NCBI GenBank assembly: GCA_016198685.1
Contig: JACQID010000008.1
Location: 1 to 64,000 of the forward strand
DNA length: 64,000 nucleotides
Origin: Candidatus Aenigmatarchaeota archaeon
GTDB lineage: Archaea; Aenigmatarchaeota; Aenigmatarchaeia; GW2011-AR5
Direction: 5' to 3'
Of this stretch, positions 2,700 to 54,257 are shown one piece after another. The translations under genes and the position numbers were made by a program. Each line of letters begins with the position of its first letter. The stretch's first letter is position 1. Below the pieces are notes generated by a model. The model did no database searches. It was not told the origin of the DNA and saw nothing but the letters and a program-made list of their open reading frames with translations.

Positions 2700-2803
2700 A
2701 GCCCCGTCGTCTAGTGGTCATTTCGTTTCTTTTTGGAAACGGAAACACAAAAGGATGCAAGCCTCTGGAGCTTGATACAGCGGTTCGAATCCGCTCGGGG
2801 CTA
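2700..2803 (+). tRNA. tRNA-Gln(CUG) with a D-loop intron
   Basis: The acceptor arms AGCCCCG/CGGGGCT pair fully, the T arm is AGCGG-TTCGAAT-CCGCT, and the anticodon arm CAAGC-CTCTGGA-GCTTG gives anticodon CTG. The D-stem GTCT/GGAT is separated by 40 nt instead of about 9, so an intron sits in the D-loop. Excision of 2720-2750 leaves a normal D-loop. The CCA end is not encoded. A PspC gene begins 30 nt downstream and is probably co-transcribed. Confidence 0.9.
2720..2750 (+). other. tRNA-Gln D-loop intron, 31 nt
   Basis: The predicted bulge-helix-bulge consists of a 5' bulge TC|A, a 3' bulge AA|A, a central helix GTGG/ACAC (three pairs plus a terminal G-A), and an inner 9-bp hairpin TTTCGTTTC/GAAACGGAA. 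Cutting after the second base of each bulge yields the D-loop AGTGGTCAA. The layout is the same as in the tRNA-Val intron at 54180-54204. Confidence 0.7.
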
Positions 2804-36204: not shown

Positions 36205-36816
36205 TTATGGCTTGTGCCTTAGCACCTGATAGTAGGTGCAGTCGCCTTCATTGTCAACAACTGCCCATAGCATCCTTGCACGAATATTATGGGCAAGACG
36301 CACTGCGCGGGAAAGCTCCTGAAAAGAACAGTTATAATCCTCAGAAATGGCAAATACTATCCACTTGGTATGCTCCTTGGCACTTTTCGGGCCTTTCTTT
36401 AATTGTACGCCTCTTTCATAAACGCGGAAATCGCATCCGAACTTGAAACCTGTTCTTACCAGAAGACCACGTTCACGCAGATCCTCATACACCCTGTATC
36501 TTTCAGGCATCCTGGTATCCAGTGCAGATGCGTGCTTGTAAAGATCGTCAAAATTCATGGGAGCGCCTTTGTTTGCAAGGCGTATCCTTCCTCTTTTGAG
36601 CAGAAGCAGTGCTTCTATAAGCGCGATTTCAAGACGGTTTTCCATGGGCTTGCCATAATAACCCGGCTCATAAAGGGGTTCCCAGCCTTTCCAGACAATG
36701 ATTTTATCATCATGGAGTTCTGCAGGCACTGGCTCTTTGAGCGGAGCTTCTACTATGCCGGGCGATGGAAGTTCCTCAGGCTCCGTCTCAACTTCCTGTT
36801 GTTTTTTCTTGCTCAT
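36205..36816 (-). CDS. endA: tRNA-splicing endonuclease subunit, catalytic Lys apparently replaced
   Basis: This is the EndA family that cuts BHB motifs in pre-tRNA. A low-complexity N-terminus (residues 1-37) precedes the N-domain (ALIEALLLLKRGRIRL) and nuclease domain (VYEDLRERGLLVRTGFKFGC). Catalytic Tyr (Y133 in DFRVYERG) and His (H149 in KEHTKWIV) are present. Where the family has RLAHSVRK followed by the catalytic Lys position, this protein reads RLAHNIRARMLWAVVD, with Ala180 and Arg181. It may be a structural subunit paired with another gene, or use Arg. Length is 203 aa. The window itself contains four intron-bearing tRNAs. Confidence 0.88.
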   Translation of the reverse strand: MSKKKQQEVETEPEELPSPGIVEAPLKEPVPAELHDDKIIVWKGWEPLYEPGYYGKPMENRLEIALIEALLLLKRGRIRLANKGAPMNFDDLYKHASALDTRMPERYRVYEDLRERGLLVRTGFKFGCDFRVYERGVQLKKGPKSAKEHTKWIVFAISEDYNCSFQELSRAVRLAHNIRARMLWAVVDNEGDCTYYQVLRHKP

Positions 36817-37682: not shown

Positions 37683-37785
37683 CGCCCTCGCGCGGGCTCG
37701 AACCGCGGACCTTCTGGTTAACAGCCAGACGCTCTACCTATCTCAAAACGCTCCCGCAGGATACGTTTAACTGAGCTACAAGGGC
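37683..37785 (-). tRNA. tRNA-Asn(GUU) with a D-loop intron
   Basis: The acceptor GCCCTTG/CGAGGGC, anticodon arm TCTGG-CTGTTAA-CCAGA (GTT) and T arm CCGCG-GTTCGAG-CCCGC-type pairing are intact. The D-stem GCTC/GAGC is separated by 38 nt. Removing the predicted intron 37740-37769 gives the D-loop AGTAGGTA. A promoter-like TTTAAACTTATTAAAG lies upstream on this strand near 37812-37827. Confidence 0.92.
37740..37769 (-). other. tRNA-Asn D-loop intron, 30 nt
   Basis: A canonical bulge-helix-bulge forms: the central helix CTCA/TGAG has four perfect pairs, the 5' bulge is GT|T, the 3' bulge is AT|A, and the inner helix AAACG/CGTTT closes a 13-nt loop. The central helix uses D-stem bases, so the D-arm can only form after splicing. 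Confidence 0.75.
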
Positions 37786-38946: not shown

Positions 38947-41900
38947 TTATTCACCCTCTTCCTGCTTAGGCGTTTCAGGTTCTTCAGCCAGGGCATCGCC
39001 GGCTTTCTCGGTAGCTTCCTTAAGCTTATTTCTGTTCTCTATTATGCCTTTGAGTTTCGCAAGTATGCTTTTTTCTTCCTTGCCCGTTAATATGTGCAGG
39101 GCAGTTGCGACTTCGACCGAGTATCGTTCGAATATCTGCAGCCTTCTTTTCTGTTCGCCTTCCTTGCGCTTGCCGGAAATGTATCTTGATAGTTGCCTGC
39201 CTGCGTCCTGTATCGCAAGCTTCATCTCCTTGACTATGTCCGGATAAGGGGCTATGGCTTCCTTGCTCTCCGAAACGAAAGGCACCCATGATGATGCCAT
39301 GTGAACCACTAGCACCATAGGACCCACTGGAACATTGCTTCCGGATTGCTGCAGGCCGTATCGCTTCCATTCGATTTCCTTGATCGCTTCCATTGTTGCG
39401 CCTGCGCCTGCCTGATAAAGAAGAGGCACACGGTTGGCAAATCTCATTATTTGTATCTGTTCATCCGCCTTCATCTCACCGCCGTATGCTATGCCCACTT
39501 CTATTTCAAAAGGGTTGCCTCTGTAAACCGTAGGCTCTCTCTGCACGGCGACAATGAATTCAGCGCCAGGAAACTCCTTCTTCAGGCTTTTCTCGAGTTC
39601 TTTCCCGCCTATAGGCGAGAGGCAATCAAGAGGCGGCCTCTGAAGCTTGGCTTCCTGCATAGCCTTCAGGAGTTTTTCTATCTGCGTCCTGTCAAGTGAT
39701 GCAGGCGCTGCCTGAGCATCTATCTTTGCCATGTTGCATATTTCCTTGGCGCTTTGTGCCCCTGTTGACGAGAAATCATTTGCTATGAAAGTGCTGACGT
39801 TTCTGCTTTTCGTATTAACCAGCATTCGCTGCAGAATTCCGAATTCTATGCCGTAAGGATGCGGCTTCATTTCCTTCGGCGCTTTTGGAAGTTCATTAAC
39901 GCTTCTTGGAAATATACTTTTGACGCCGTCAGGCGCAGTATACGTTATTTTTGCAAAAGGATTGGCTATCGACGTCTGCTTGAGATAATCATCGACCCCC
40001 TGTGTCTTCCTGTAACGACCGGACATCTCTATGCTGACTATTGTGCCGTGCTCTTTGAGAGGCGATTCGTCAAGATAATCTTCTTTGACAACTTTTGGCT
40101 CATTCTTCATCGTGTCTATATTCAGTTCAACATAAGTTGTCTTCTTGTCGCCCTCTGTGCGCGTCCATATCTTTGTAGGGGTTCCTGTTGTCAGTTGCGA
40201 GTATAATGCTACTGCAGATATCCCGATACCCTGCTGGCCGCGGCTGTTGTGGCACGATATGCCTCCCAAGCCGCCTATGAAATTTTCACACTCCGGAACC
40301 GATATATCATATACAAATTCGTAGCCTTCATTGAGGACTTCAATCGCCGTGACAGGGAGCATCACGATATCGGTCCCCTGTTCTGTGAGAAGGGCGGCGG
40401 AATTGTGATATATCGATCTCATTCTTGTCGTATTGGTAGTTTTGAAAACATAGGATGAGTTTATGTCCGTGCCGTATACCGAAACCACGTGGGCGGTATA
40501 CGGATTTCTCCCAAATCCTTTGCCGGTTCTTCGCGTCCTGCATGCCGCTATTCCCTGCATGGCCCAGAGATACATGAGTTCGTTGCAAAGGCGGGCGCTT
40601 ACGGTGCTGAACATAAGGCAGTTTCTTTTCCTGACTTTGTGGCCGTCTCCCTGGTAAAGGGCGTCTATGAAATGTTGCCTGTTTTCGCGGCTTGTCCTGA
40701 AGATGAACTCCGGGATGCGTTTGTTGTGCGCGCCTTTTCCGCACAGTTTTTCGAGCAGAAGGCTCATTACGTTGCCGAATATCTTGACCCTTATACTCCT
40801 TTCGCGCGGCTCGACCGTAAAGCTCAATCCCATCCTCCTTGCAAATCCTATGGTCTCCTCTATCAGGGAATCCTCGTGTTTTCCAAATGTTAGTCCTATC
40901 TGCCTTTTGTCAACGTGACCTTCGGCCACAAAAAGGCCGAGGAAACGCATGAAGAATCTTTCAAGTTTCAGGGCGACAGGTATCCTTGTAGGCTTCCCGT
41001 GGTAATAAGATTGCAATATGCAGTCTTTCAACATGGATGTTGGCACAAGCCTGAGTGCCAGATGAAGCGGCATAAATCCTTTGCTTGTATACTGCTTCCA
41101 GCTGTCATCAAGTATATCAATGCCGCCTATCCTGTAATATCTCCGGCTTTTATCTGTTTTGTTGTGCACGGTTAGGGATTTTTTGAATAATTCCTCGAAT
41201 ATGCTCTGCTCTATGCCGTATACATAAAACCAGTTAGCATCTATATCGCCAGGTTGGATGTAGTCAAGTATGTTTATCTCATCTATTTCTTCAGGAGGGG
41301 ATATTGCCCTCGGCGCCGCTATGAAATCTCCTATCCTGAGGTTTCTCGCTTCAACCTCCTTGAGTCCGGCCCCTTGGGCGGAAAACAGGCTATGACAGCC
41401 TGTCACCTTTATTTCCCTGTTGCCAGCAAGCTTTATTTTCAGTATCTCGTTTTCCCTTCTATGGCGTATTACATGGCTGACTTTGCGGAATGCATATTTA
41501 TACCCTTTCCAGTCGAAGGAAGGAACCTTTATATTGAGCGATGAAACATCTCGCAGTTCAGCATCCCCTATATACCGGTCCACAAGCTCTCCGATAGGGA
41601 GTATTTCGACTTTACCGTTAATGCATGCCATGACAGGCTCGTCATGCGTCAGAGACTGCCTCAATCTGTGGAATTTGCTTCCATAAAGTAGCTTTCCGAA
41701 TATTCGCGGAACCTGCTCTCTGACAATTCCCGGCCCGTTGTCCTGTACGGTAACAAGGAACTTATCTTCGCCAATATCCTTCATTTTAACGGCAAGGTCT
41801 GGAAGTATCTCGCTTTCTTCGCATGCATCGAGAGAATTGTCAACTGCCTCCTTTACAGCCATCAGTAGAGCCTTCGTAGGATTATCGAAACCTAAAAGGT

Positions 41901-41976
41901 GGCGATTCTTCTCAAAAAACTCACTTATTGATATCTCTTTCTGCATCGCTGCCATTTCTTGTGCTGTCTTTCCCAT
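38947..41976 (-). CDS. top6B: DNA topoisomerase VI subunit B, interrupted by an intein
   Basis: GHKL ATPase subunit that gates DNA passage. The extein has the Bergerat motifs KEAVDNSLDACEE and TVQDNGPGI, then GKLLYGSKFHRLRQ, then, after a 470-residue intein, SRGQQGIGISAVALYSQ (ATP lid). The transducer domain and C-terminal tail follow. Spliced length is about 540 aa. I prefer the ATG at 41976, with GAGTGATG before it, over a GTG at 41985. The start overlaps the KH gene by about 56 bp. Confidence 0.95.
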   Translation of the reverse strand: MGKTAQEMAAMQKEISISEFFEKNRHLLGFDNPTKALLMAVKEAVDNSLDACEESEILPDLAVKMKDIGEDKFLVTVQDNGPGIVREQVPRIFGKLLYGSKFHRLRQSLTHDEPVMACINGKVEILPIGELVDRYIGDAELRDVSSLNIKVPSFDWKGYKYAFRKVSHVIRHRRENEILKIKLAGNREIKVTGCHSLFSAQGAGLKEVEARNLRIGDFIAAPRAISPPEEIDEINILDYIQPGDIDANWFYVYGIEQSIFEELFKKSLTVHNKTDKSRRYYRIGGIDILDDSWKQYTSKGFMPLHLALRLVPTSMLKDCILQSYYHGKPTRIPVALKLERFFMRFLGLFVAEGHVDKRQIGLTFGKHEDSLIEETIGFARRMGLSFTVEPRERSIRVKIFGNVMSLLLEKLCGKGAHNKRIPEFIFRTSRENRQHFIDALYQGDGHKVRKRNCLMFSTVSARLCNELMYLWAMQGIAACRTRRTGKGFGRNPYTAHVVSVYGTDINSSYVFKTTNTTRMRSIYHNSAALLTEQGTDIVMLPVTAIEVLNEGYEFVYDISVPECENFIGGLGGISCHNSRGQQGIGISAVALYSQLTTGTPTKIWTRTEGDKKTTYVELNIDTMKNEPKVVKEDYLDESPLKEHGTIVSIEMSGRYRKTQGVDDYLKQTSIANPFAKITYTAPDGVKSIFPRSVNELPKAPKEMKPHPYGIEFGILQRMLVNTKSRNVSTFIANDFSSTGAQSAKEICNMAKIDAQAAPASLDRTQIEKLLKAMQEAKLQRPPLDCLSPIGGKELEKSLKKEFPGAEFIVAVQREPTVYRGNPFEIEVGIAYGGEMKADEQIQIMRFANRVPLLYQAGAGATMEAIKEIEWKRYGLQQSGSNVPVGPMVLVVHMASSWVPFVSESKEAIAPYPDIVKEMKLAIQDAGRQLSRYISGKRKEGEQKRRLQIFERYSVEVATALHILTGKEEKSILAKLKGIIENRNKLKEATEKAGDALAEEPETPKQEEGE
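40246..41655 (-). other. Intein with LAGLIDADG homing endonuclease in Top6B
   Basis: The 470-aa element begins SLTHDEPVMA with a Ser nucleophile and ends GGISCHN followed by Ser+1. Block B is VTGCHSLFS, and the terminal blocks are YDISVPECENFIGG. Two DOD endonuclease motifs are visible: RFLGLFVAEGHV and HFIDALYQGDGHK. The insertion point is inside the ATP-lid motif of Top6B, a typical conserved site for inteins. Confidence 0.93.
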
Positions 41977-42475
41977 GATCATCACTCTTTATTTTTTTTA
42001 TAGCGCGGTAGGCATTCTTGTGAGGTGCGCCGCTTATGAGCTTGTCAAGCGCCTTTACTGCAAGTTCCACACGCTCGTGCCCCCCTATCACGGAAACCGT
42101 CTTGCCGTAAACGGAGAGCCGTGTTTTTGTTTCCCGTTCTATGCGCCTTCTTGCTTTCCCGCGCGTGCCTATGATTCTTGCTCTTACCCTTTCCAATCCT
42201 TTCTCCGGCAGGTTCATTATGTGGAGGGTTTGGGTTTCGTCAAGAAGCTTTAGCGCTGCCATTGGCGGGAACCCCCTTCCAATTGCACTTATTATTTGCG
42301 CTGCAACCATGACATCCAGGGGATCTCCCCTTATCACTATGGCATCTCCTATATTTATTCTTGTCCGCGTTTTGGCTTCTATTTCATTCTTCGTTGTACC
42401 GGCCCTGCCTATCAAAACGGCCTTTCTTTCTTCCGGTATTTTAATATCCTTTTCAGCGTAGTTATCGGAATCCAT
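41921..42475 (-). CDS. KH-domain RNA-binding protein, Pno1/Dim2-like
   Basis: Two KH domains: IPEERKAVLIGRAGTTKNEI with GxxG, and RARIIGTRGKARRRIERETK, then VYGKTVSVIGG. The link IISAIGRGFPPMAALKLLD is characteristic of archaeal Pno1/Dim2-like proteins, which act in small-subunit rRNA maturation. Start at ATG 42475 (about 184 aa). It follows aIF1A and overlaps top6B at its 3' end. Confidence 0.88.
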   Translation of the reverse strand: MDSDNYAEKDIKIPEERKAVLIGRAGTTKNEIEAKTRTRINIGDAIVIRGDPLDVMVAAQIISAIGRGFPPMAALKLLDETQTLHIMNLPEKGLERVRARIIGTRGKARRRIERETKTRLSVYGKTVSVIGGHERVELAVKALDKLISGAPHKNAYRAIKKIKSDDHGKDSTRNGSDAERDINK

Positions 42476-51892: not shown

Positions 51893-52058
51893 GATATAAT
51901 CTAGGCAATATTTAAAAAAGTGTACTTTAATGCTCCAAAGCGGCAGGAAGCGCAGAAAACGGCCTTTCAGTGGGCCAAACGCCGCTCTGTTTGCATGGAT
52001 TTAAGTTTTGCGAATTAAGTAGCAGTCAGGGGCCGGTAGCTCAGTCGGTAGAGCATCA

Positions 52059-52071
52059 AAGTGATGTGCAC
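52059..52071 (+). other. tRNA-Ile intron 1 (position 29/30), 13 nt
   Basis: A minimal BHB: outer pairs AGA/TCT, central helix GCAT/GTGC (one T-G), 5' bulge CA|A, 3' bulge AC|G, and a loop of only six bases (AGTGAT). It lies in the anticodon stem between positions 29 and 30. Confidence 0.65.
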
Positions 52072-52079
52072 GTCTTATA

Positions 52080-52108
52080 TGACGGCTGAGTATTATGCCA
52101 TCTAGGCA
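52080..52108 (+). other. tRNA-Ile intron 2 (position 37/38), 29 nt
   Basis: A canonical BHB: outer helix TCAGT/ACTGA (complete only after intron 1 is removed), central helix CTTA/TAGG, 5' bulge TA|T, 3' bulge CA|A and inner helix GACGGC/GCCATC with one mismatch. Confidence 0.75.
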
Positions 52109-52176
52109 AACTGAAGGTCGGGAGTTCGATTCTCCCCCGGCCCATTTCTTTCCTATTCATGTTTTCATCACGGATG

Positions 52177-54159: not shown

Positions 54160-54257
54160 GGGCTCGTGGTCTAGCGGCTATTTTCCGAAAACGGAAAAAC
54201 GCAAATGACGCAACCTTCACATGGTTGAGGCCGGCGGTTCAAATCCGCCCGGGCCCA
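54160..54257 (+). tRNA. tRNA-Val(CAC) with a D-loop intron
   Basis: Acceptor GGGCTCG/CGGGCCC (one T-G), anticodon arm CAACC-TTCACAT-GGTTG with anticodon CAC, T arm GGCGG-TTCAAAT-CCGCC. The D-loop is expanded by 25 nt. No encoded CCA. The mvaD ATG is 11 bp downstream of the tRNA end, so they must share a transcript. Confidence 0.92.
54180..54204 (+). other. tRNA-Val D-loop intron, 25 nt
   Basis: BHB with central helix GCGG/ACGC (three pairs plus terminal G-A), 5' bulge CT|A, 3' bulge AA|A, and a 7-bp inner hairpin TTTTCCG/CGGAAAA with loop AAAA. The spliced D-loop reads AGCGGCTAT. Same design as the tRNA-Gln intron. Confidence 0.75.

Follow-up and report, generated by a model that had tools for sequence, protein, structure and literature searches.

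A two-intron tRNA-Ile(UAU) gene as the probable AUA reader of an Aenigmatarchaeota genome

A tRNA-Ile(UAU) gene interrupted by two introns lies at 52030–52144 (+) of the window analysed here, the first 64,000 nt of a contig from an Aenigmatarchaeota (DPANN) genome of 0.93 Mb in 8 contigs that is 93.7% complete. On the evidence of the sequence, its identity is confirmed. We consider it very likely that the gene encodes an AUA-reading tRNA-Ile that stands in for the agmatidine pathway, with intron 1 leaving first, intron 2 aiding this step through the D-stem, and intron 2 then being cut in turn. How to read AUA but not AUG is a classic problem of decoding, solved differently in the three domains of life; the usual archaeal system is a tRNA with a modified cytidine (agmatidine, TiaS). 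The phylum apparently does without this standard answer and uses AUA as a frequent Ile codon, in the window as the main one. The local gene is a good example, and the phylum-wide pattern is the interesting part. As far as our searches show, the phylum-wide combination of UAU tRNAs with no TiaS and the near-obligate anticodon-loop intron are new; taken singly, UAU tRNAs, multiple introns and ordered splicing were known before. The literature searched, to which most subscription journals did not belong, yielded no report of UAU tRNAs or of TiaS loss in Aenigmatarchaeota.

The Rfam tRNA model matches the locus at 53.4 bits (E 1.2e-8 in the window), and the gene divides as follows.

52059–52071 (+), intron 1, 13 nt at position 29/30; from folding and the same geometry in 11 genomes
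52080–52108 (+), intron 2, 29 nt at position 37/38; from folding and orthologs
52030–52058 (+), exon 1, nt 1–29 of tRNA-Ile(UAU); from the Rfam match, splitting of the gene and the cloverleaf fold
52072–52079 (+), exon 2, nt 30–37 (GUCUUAUA), which holds the anticodon UAU; from the sequence and splitting of the gene
52109–52144 (+), exon 3, nt 38–73; from the Rfam match, splitting of the gene and the cloverleaf fold

Removal of both introns leaves a 73-nt tRNA whose free minimum-energy (MFE) fold is a complete cloverleaf, with the anticodon stem UCAGU/ACUGA, the loop CUUAUAA and the anticodon UAU in place. The original prediction had proposed this stem and loop, together with the gene coordinates, the anticodon and introns of 13 nt at 29/30 and 29 nt at 37/38. 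Splitting of the gene, the fold and the orthologs bear it out on each point. An ortholog in a genome of the same genus (L031) is 97% identical and keeps both introns. ARAGORN did not report the gene under default settings. When long introns were permitted, it returned Gly(gcc) in one mode, which we rejected, and Ile(gat) in another.

Several observations make this tRNA very probably the AUA reader. The genome has a separate tRNA-Ile(GAU) (L021, with an intron near nt 8–9), TiaS, searched as the PF08489 profile with its cut-off, has no match in the genome (93.7% complete), the only CAU tRNAs found are the elongator (L011) and initiator (L253) Met tRNAs, and AUA accounts for 635 of the 985 Ile codons (64%) in 29 window genes. 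A tRNA-Ile2(CAU) was sought among Rfam candidates read down to E 10 and by pattern, and none was seen in this genome; a second CAU pattern match (C6:312140) is an intron-bearing tRNA-Lys(CUU). The search for TiaS and tRNA-Ile2(CAU) that had been put forward as a check on UAU decoding thus came out in its favour. The profile likewise has no match in 31 genomes of the order, and in none of 156 phylum genomes does a match reach the cut-off; four archaeal controls were positive in this search. One match in genome G080 (18.6 bits) was discarded as sub-threshold and carrying two internal stops. The mature tRNA would read AUA through U34, which presumably bears a modification or some other constraint that keeps it from reading AUG, and tRNA-Ile(UAU) would in this way replace the agmatidine pathway.

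The gene is not peculiar to this genome. Ile(UAU) was verified in 70 of the 156 phylum genomes, from 18 families, a count from which L077 and L106 were dropped as lying beyond the phylum and to which L046 and the truncated L177 were added by hand. Because the search pattern requires an uninterrupted TAGCTYAG...GAGC D-arm, the remaining 86 genomes are no evidence of absence. The thermosome gene that adjoins the tRNA has its nearest named relatives on Candidatus Aenigmatarchaeota contigs (best 74% identity). An Ile gene likewise sits next to it in L060 and L062, two of the 16 thermosome loci scanned, and we count synteny as support for these two alone.

Two other accounts of the locus and of AUA decoding have to be weighed against this reading. 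It is extremely improbable that the gene is a decayed tRNA or a tRNA-Ile(GAU) with a single long intron. The ARAGORN Ile(gat) call, with its 42-nt intron, and an ortholog with a CUGAUA loop (L032) speak for this, but the Ile(gat) reading leaves pairs 30–40 and 31–39 of the anticodon stem unpaired (two mismatches by our own reading), the genome already has an Ile(GAU) gene in L021, and L031 and dozens of relatives that retain CUUAUA and full stems contradict it; we rejected the call. It is likewise very unlikely that some unrecognised enzyme modifies a CAU tRNA to read AUA and that the UAU tRNA plays a minor role. A genome 93.7% complete leaves some room for this, but no Ile-type CAU tRNA appeared among the candidates described above, and the UAU anticodon is conserved in 18 families.

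Both introns are framed by the archaeal bulge–helix–bulge (BHB) motif, a 4-bp central helix flanked by two 3-nt bulges with cuts after the second bulge nucleotide. In the folded BHB1 (intron 1) the central helix pairs G24-C25-A26-U27 with GUGC, between the bulges CA|A and AC|G; the intron side is a single A-U pair closed by a GUGA loop, and the outer helix joins nt 21–23 with 31–33. The central helix of BHB2 (intron 2), again from folding, pairs C32-U33-U34-A35 with UAGG, its bulges are UA|U and CA|A, and the intron helix GACGGC/GCCAUC contains one mismatch; the outer helix is the anticodon stem. The 29/30 intron recurs in 11 genomes of six families (f1, f2, f7, f16, f17 and f20) at lengths of 12 to 63 nt. 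Its central helix is intact (4/4) in 10 of these 11 genes and its outer helix (3/3) in all 11, and exchanges in relatives preserve the BHB1 pairing (A26-U to G26-C, U27-G to C27-G). Compensatory changes of this kind, with the sequence and the orthologs, back the predicted splice sites and both BHBs. Thirteen of the 70 UAU genomes carry an additional intron at some point between nt 25 and 31, a count to which L032 with its GAU loop does not contribute. The view of the 13-nt intron as close to minimal in size is true only in a loose sense, since relatives have introns of 11 and 12 nt. The 12-nt intron interrupts the Ile(UAU) gene L151 (G061) at 29/30, and the 11-nt one, read by hand, lies in the anticodon loop of a tRNA-Ile(GAU) (L241, G075); the central helix is 4/4 in each. 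Some Ile(UAU) genes have further introns in the D-loop or T-loop: L046 (G019), L041 (G010), L179 (G086) and L181 (G105). L046 apparently contains four introns.

Nucleotides 31–33 belong to the outer helix of BHB1 and also to the outer or central helix of BHB2, and because both motifs need them the two are mutually exclusive. Folding energies, which were computed for naked RNA and serve as a guide only, favour the order intron 1, then intron 2. In the full precursor, BHB1 can be forced at 6.1 kcal/mol above the free MFE. Forcing BHB2 costs 10.8 (with a 2-bp outer helix) to 14.6 kcal/mol (with the helix across a 13-nt bulge) before intron 1 is removed and 4.1 kcal/mol afterwards; relative to the free fold, BHB2 is 6.7–10.5 kcal/mol costlier before than after. 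These values support the ordered splicing of the original prediction. Its premise, that the outer helix of BHB2 exists only once intron 1 is gone, holds in part: two of the five pairs can form earlier, and the other three need the 13-nt bulge at high cost. With intron 2 already gone, BHB1 can be forced for 4.7 kcal/mol, which is compatible with the reverse order; the asymmetry comes from BHB2. The minimum-energy fold contains neither BHB, and the free precursor fold has a different hairpin at intron 1. We suggest that the 13-nt intron would leave first because BHB1 needs nt 21–27 and 31–33. Its removal would complete the anticodon stem, the outer helix of BHB2, and intron 2 would then be cut. 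The nested introns offer a concrete and cheap in vitro test case for ordered archaeal splicing.

Intron 2 may also take part in the first step. In the free precursor fold its GGCUGAG pairs with the 5' strand of the D-stem, and this pairing survives when BHB1 is forced. The stretch concerned is the following.

52085–52092 (+), part of intron 2 with CUGAGU, complementary to the D-stem 5' strand GCUCAG (nt 10–15, 52039–52044); candidate clamp, from folds and gene comparison

By holding the 5' strand, intron 2 would free the 3' strand of the D-stem (within nt 21–27) for BHB1, and in this way it probably assists removal of intron 1. Intron 2 contains the complement of the D-strand hexamer (GCUYAG) of its own gene in 9/14 two-intron and 9/58 one-intron genes (Fisher p 6e-4), in a post hoc test with the central-helix strand of intron 2 masked; the expectation in shuffled two-intron introns is 0.29. 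L156, L179 and L180, mis-parsed by the script, were read by eye for this count and scored as intron-bearing. When two G-U pairs are allowed there are 10 two-intron matches, and by eye nt 13 covaries in all ten, C facing G and U facing A. Base-pair probabilities between D-strand and intron 2 are higher in two-intron than in one-intron genes (Mann–Whitney p 1.6e-4; 12 and 56 genes, with L046, L156, L179 and L180 not folded), and exceed 0.5 in just 6 of the 12 two-intron genes, with L032 below that value. A general D-arm/intron 2 duplex in 63 introns stood out weakly from shuffled introns (4/200 shuffled sums as low) and did not differ significantly from swapped D-arms (42/200). We accordingly rejected such pairing across all Ile(UAU) genes and kept the narrower claim for two-intron genes. 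The clamp is put forward as a hypothesis, because the fold of this very gene prompted it, the genes compared cannot count as independent, and the general duplex test failed.

The anticodon-loop intron is retained in 69 of the 70 UAU genomes, G128 being the exception. Of 69 loci, 59 have a complete (4/4) BHB2-type central helix, which occurs in two registers: 32–35 paired with UAAG/UAGG-type strands (29 loci) and 33–36 paired with GUAA/GUAG-type strands (30 loci). The 10 loci that are imperfect in either register include the three mis-parsed genes and intronless G128. Thirteen loci were skipped by name in this analysis, comprising false pattern matches, elongator Met, truncated contigs and L032. 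The anticodon pairs with the loop intron through U34 (class I) or through U34 and U36 (class II). We compared the two isoacceptors Ile(UAU) and Ile(GAU) in genes with an uninterrupted 27–31 strand: the loop intron is missing from 1/57 UAU and 34/44 GAU genes (Fisher p 8e-17), a statistic inflated by relatedness of the genes. The other 10 GAU genes all have one, and an eleventh match, L239, was dropped as an Arg gene that the pattern had taken for Ile(GAU). Both genes were detected in 19 genomes; in 16 of these the loop intron is in the UAU but not the GAU gene, and the reverse was never seen. A UAU gene with a loop intron is also present at two loci beyond the phylum set, L077 (Nanoanaerosalina) and L106. 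The same-genus ortholog L032 (G015:C79) has the GAU-type loop and a U29-U41 mismatch, in a genome that also has a normal Ile(GAU) (L245) and whose thermosome gene has AUA at 31 of its 44 Ile codons; the loop may reflect an assembly error, decay or an anticodon switch.

Why the introns behave in this way can be read differently. It is unlikely that the order of splicing is set by enzyme preference, or is random, and not by folding. Broad-specificity endonucleases do cut relaxed motifs, according to the available text of PMC6379350, and BHB1 is not the MFE fold either; against this stand the mutually exclusive use of nt 31–33 and the extra cost of BHB2 while intron 1 is present. For the loop intron we see about an even chance that it is functionless and kept by inertia, with the GAU contrast reflecting ancestry. 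Anticodon-arm introns are frequent in this genome generally (by eye, in about half of the 27 tRNAs that ARAGORN lists), the genes are not independent, and G128 lacks the intron. Its presence in the other 69 UAU genomes, the UAU–GAU difference and the 16 one-sided genomes with none reversed argue the other way. A tentative and on present evidence doubtful proposal is that the loop intron is retained as needed for correct treatment of U34 (and U36) and, in two-intron genes, as a cis clamp opening the D-stem for the upstream intron. If this were true, an anticodon held in a helix would direct or block a modification that prevents AUG reading, on the principle of the intron-dependent Psi-A-Psi system of eukaryotes, whether ancestral or convergent. 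With the loop intron in nearly all UAU genes, the purpose of such an intron becomes testable outside eukaryotes.

A UAU anticodon had been called unusual, and for cultured archaea it is: the accessible part of one survey gives 2 of 167 archaeal genomes and an intron-bearing gene in Korarchaeum (PMC6000648). Within this phylum the description does not apply. Nanoarchaeum equitans and Korarchaeum cryptofilum have tRNA-Ile3(UAU) in place of Ile2(CAU) (PMC8450103, in the sections available). The present gene resembles theirs in its UAU anticodon, in the lack of a tRNA-Ile2(CAU) and, for Korarchaeum, in having an intron (PMC8450103, PMC6000648). It differs in that the state is phylum-wide, with TiaS at 0/156 over the cut-off, and in its second intron within the anticodon stem. 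Certain archaeal introns must leave before the next BHB forms (PMC8450103), and several BHB introns in one tRNA are removed iteratively in multiple-intron pre-tRNAs of Thermoproteales and others, as far as the accessible portions of PMC8450103 and PMC4033280 describe. Unlike those cases, the present one lies in another phylum, and its intron 2 may serve to release the D-stem so that intron 1 can be cut.

The loop intron that pairs with the anticodon recalls eukaryotic tRNA-Ile(UAU), although the gene described here is archaeal. In the available parts of PMC4090602, PMC11408192 and PMC9602550, Psi34 and Psi36 of yeast tRNA-Ile(UAU) depend on the intron, and Pus1 requires the anticodon–intron helix. 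The same sources describe a C. merolae tRNA-Ile(UAU) with three introns, of which the anticodon-arm intron is the last out. They indicate that cmPus1 makes Psi34/36 weakly and that native Psi34/36 may be incomplete or missing altogether, an argument against any universal rule.

Micrarchaeota provide a further archaeal case: the accessible portion of PMC12397907 reports the intron-containing pre-tRNA-Ile(UAU) of ARMAN-2 as an endonuclease cleavage substrate, cut by a broad-specificity endonuclease. The genome studied here has one strong match to PF01974.

36205–36816 (−), tRNA splicing endonuclease (PF01974), sole strong match in the genome; from profile search and alignment

Its catalytic Tyr and His align, and Ala occupies the position of the catalytic Lys (K282 in ARMAN-2), in the context HNIRARMLW here vs HSVRKK/HSVRKT. 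All 25 orthologs examined within the order have Ala at this position; the next residue is Arg in 20 and Lys in 5, and a KGPKSxKEHTKW-like loop nearby is strongly conserved. Tyr, His and Lys are conserved across four EndA types (PMC6379350, available text); of these, the Lys is missing here. The ARMAN-2 enzyme is of the epsilon-2 type, and its triad, Y236-H251-K282, is intact; Ala substitutions in the triad abolish cleavage (PMC12397907, same portion). Here there is a single gene with Ala for Lys.

Other genes were noticed in the window. Three tRNAs with D-arm introns fall below the Rfam cut-off: one at about 2700–2803 (+) read as Gln(CUG), one at about 54160–54256 (+) read as Val(CAC), and one at 37683–37751 (−), adjoining tRNA-Phe, read as Asn(GUU). 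The 1012-aa ORF at 38947–41985 (−) resembles, from its translation, topoisomerase VI subunit B with an intein-like insertion.
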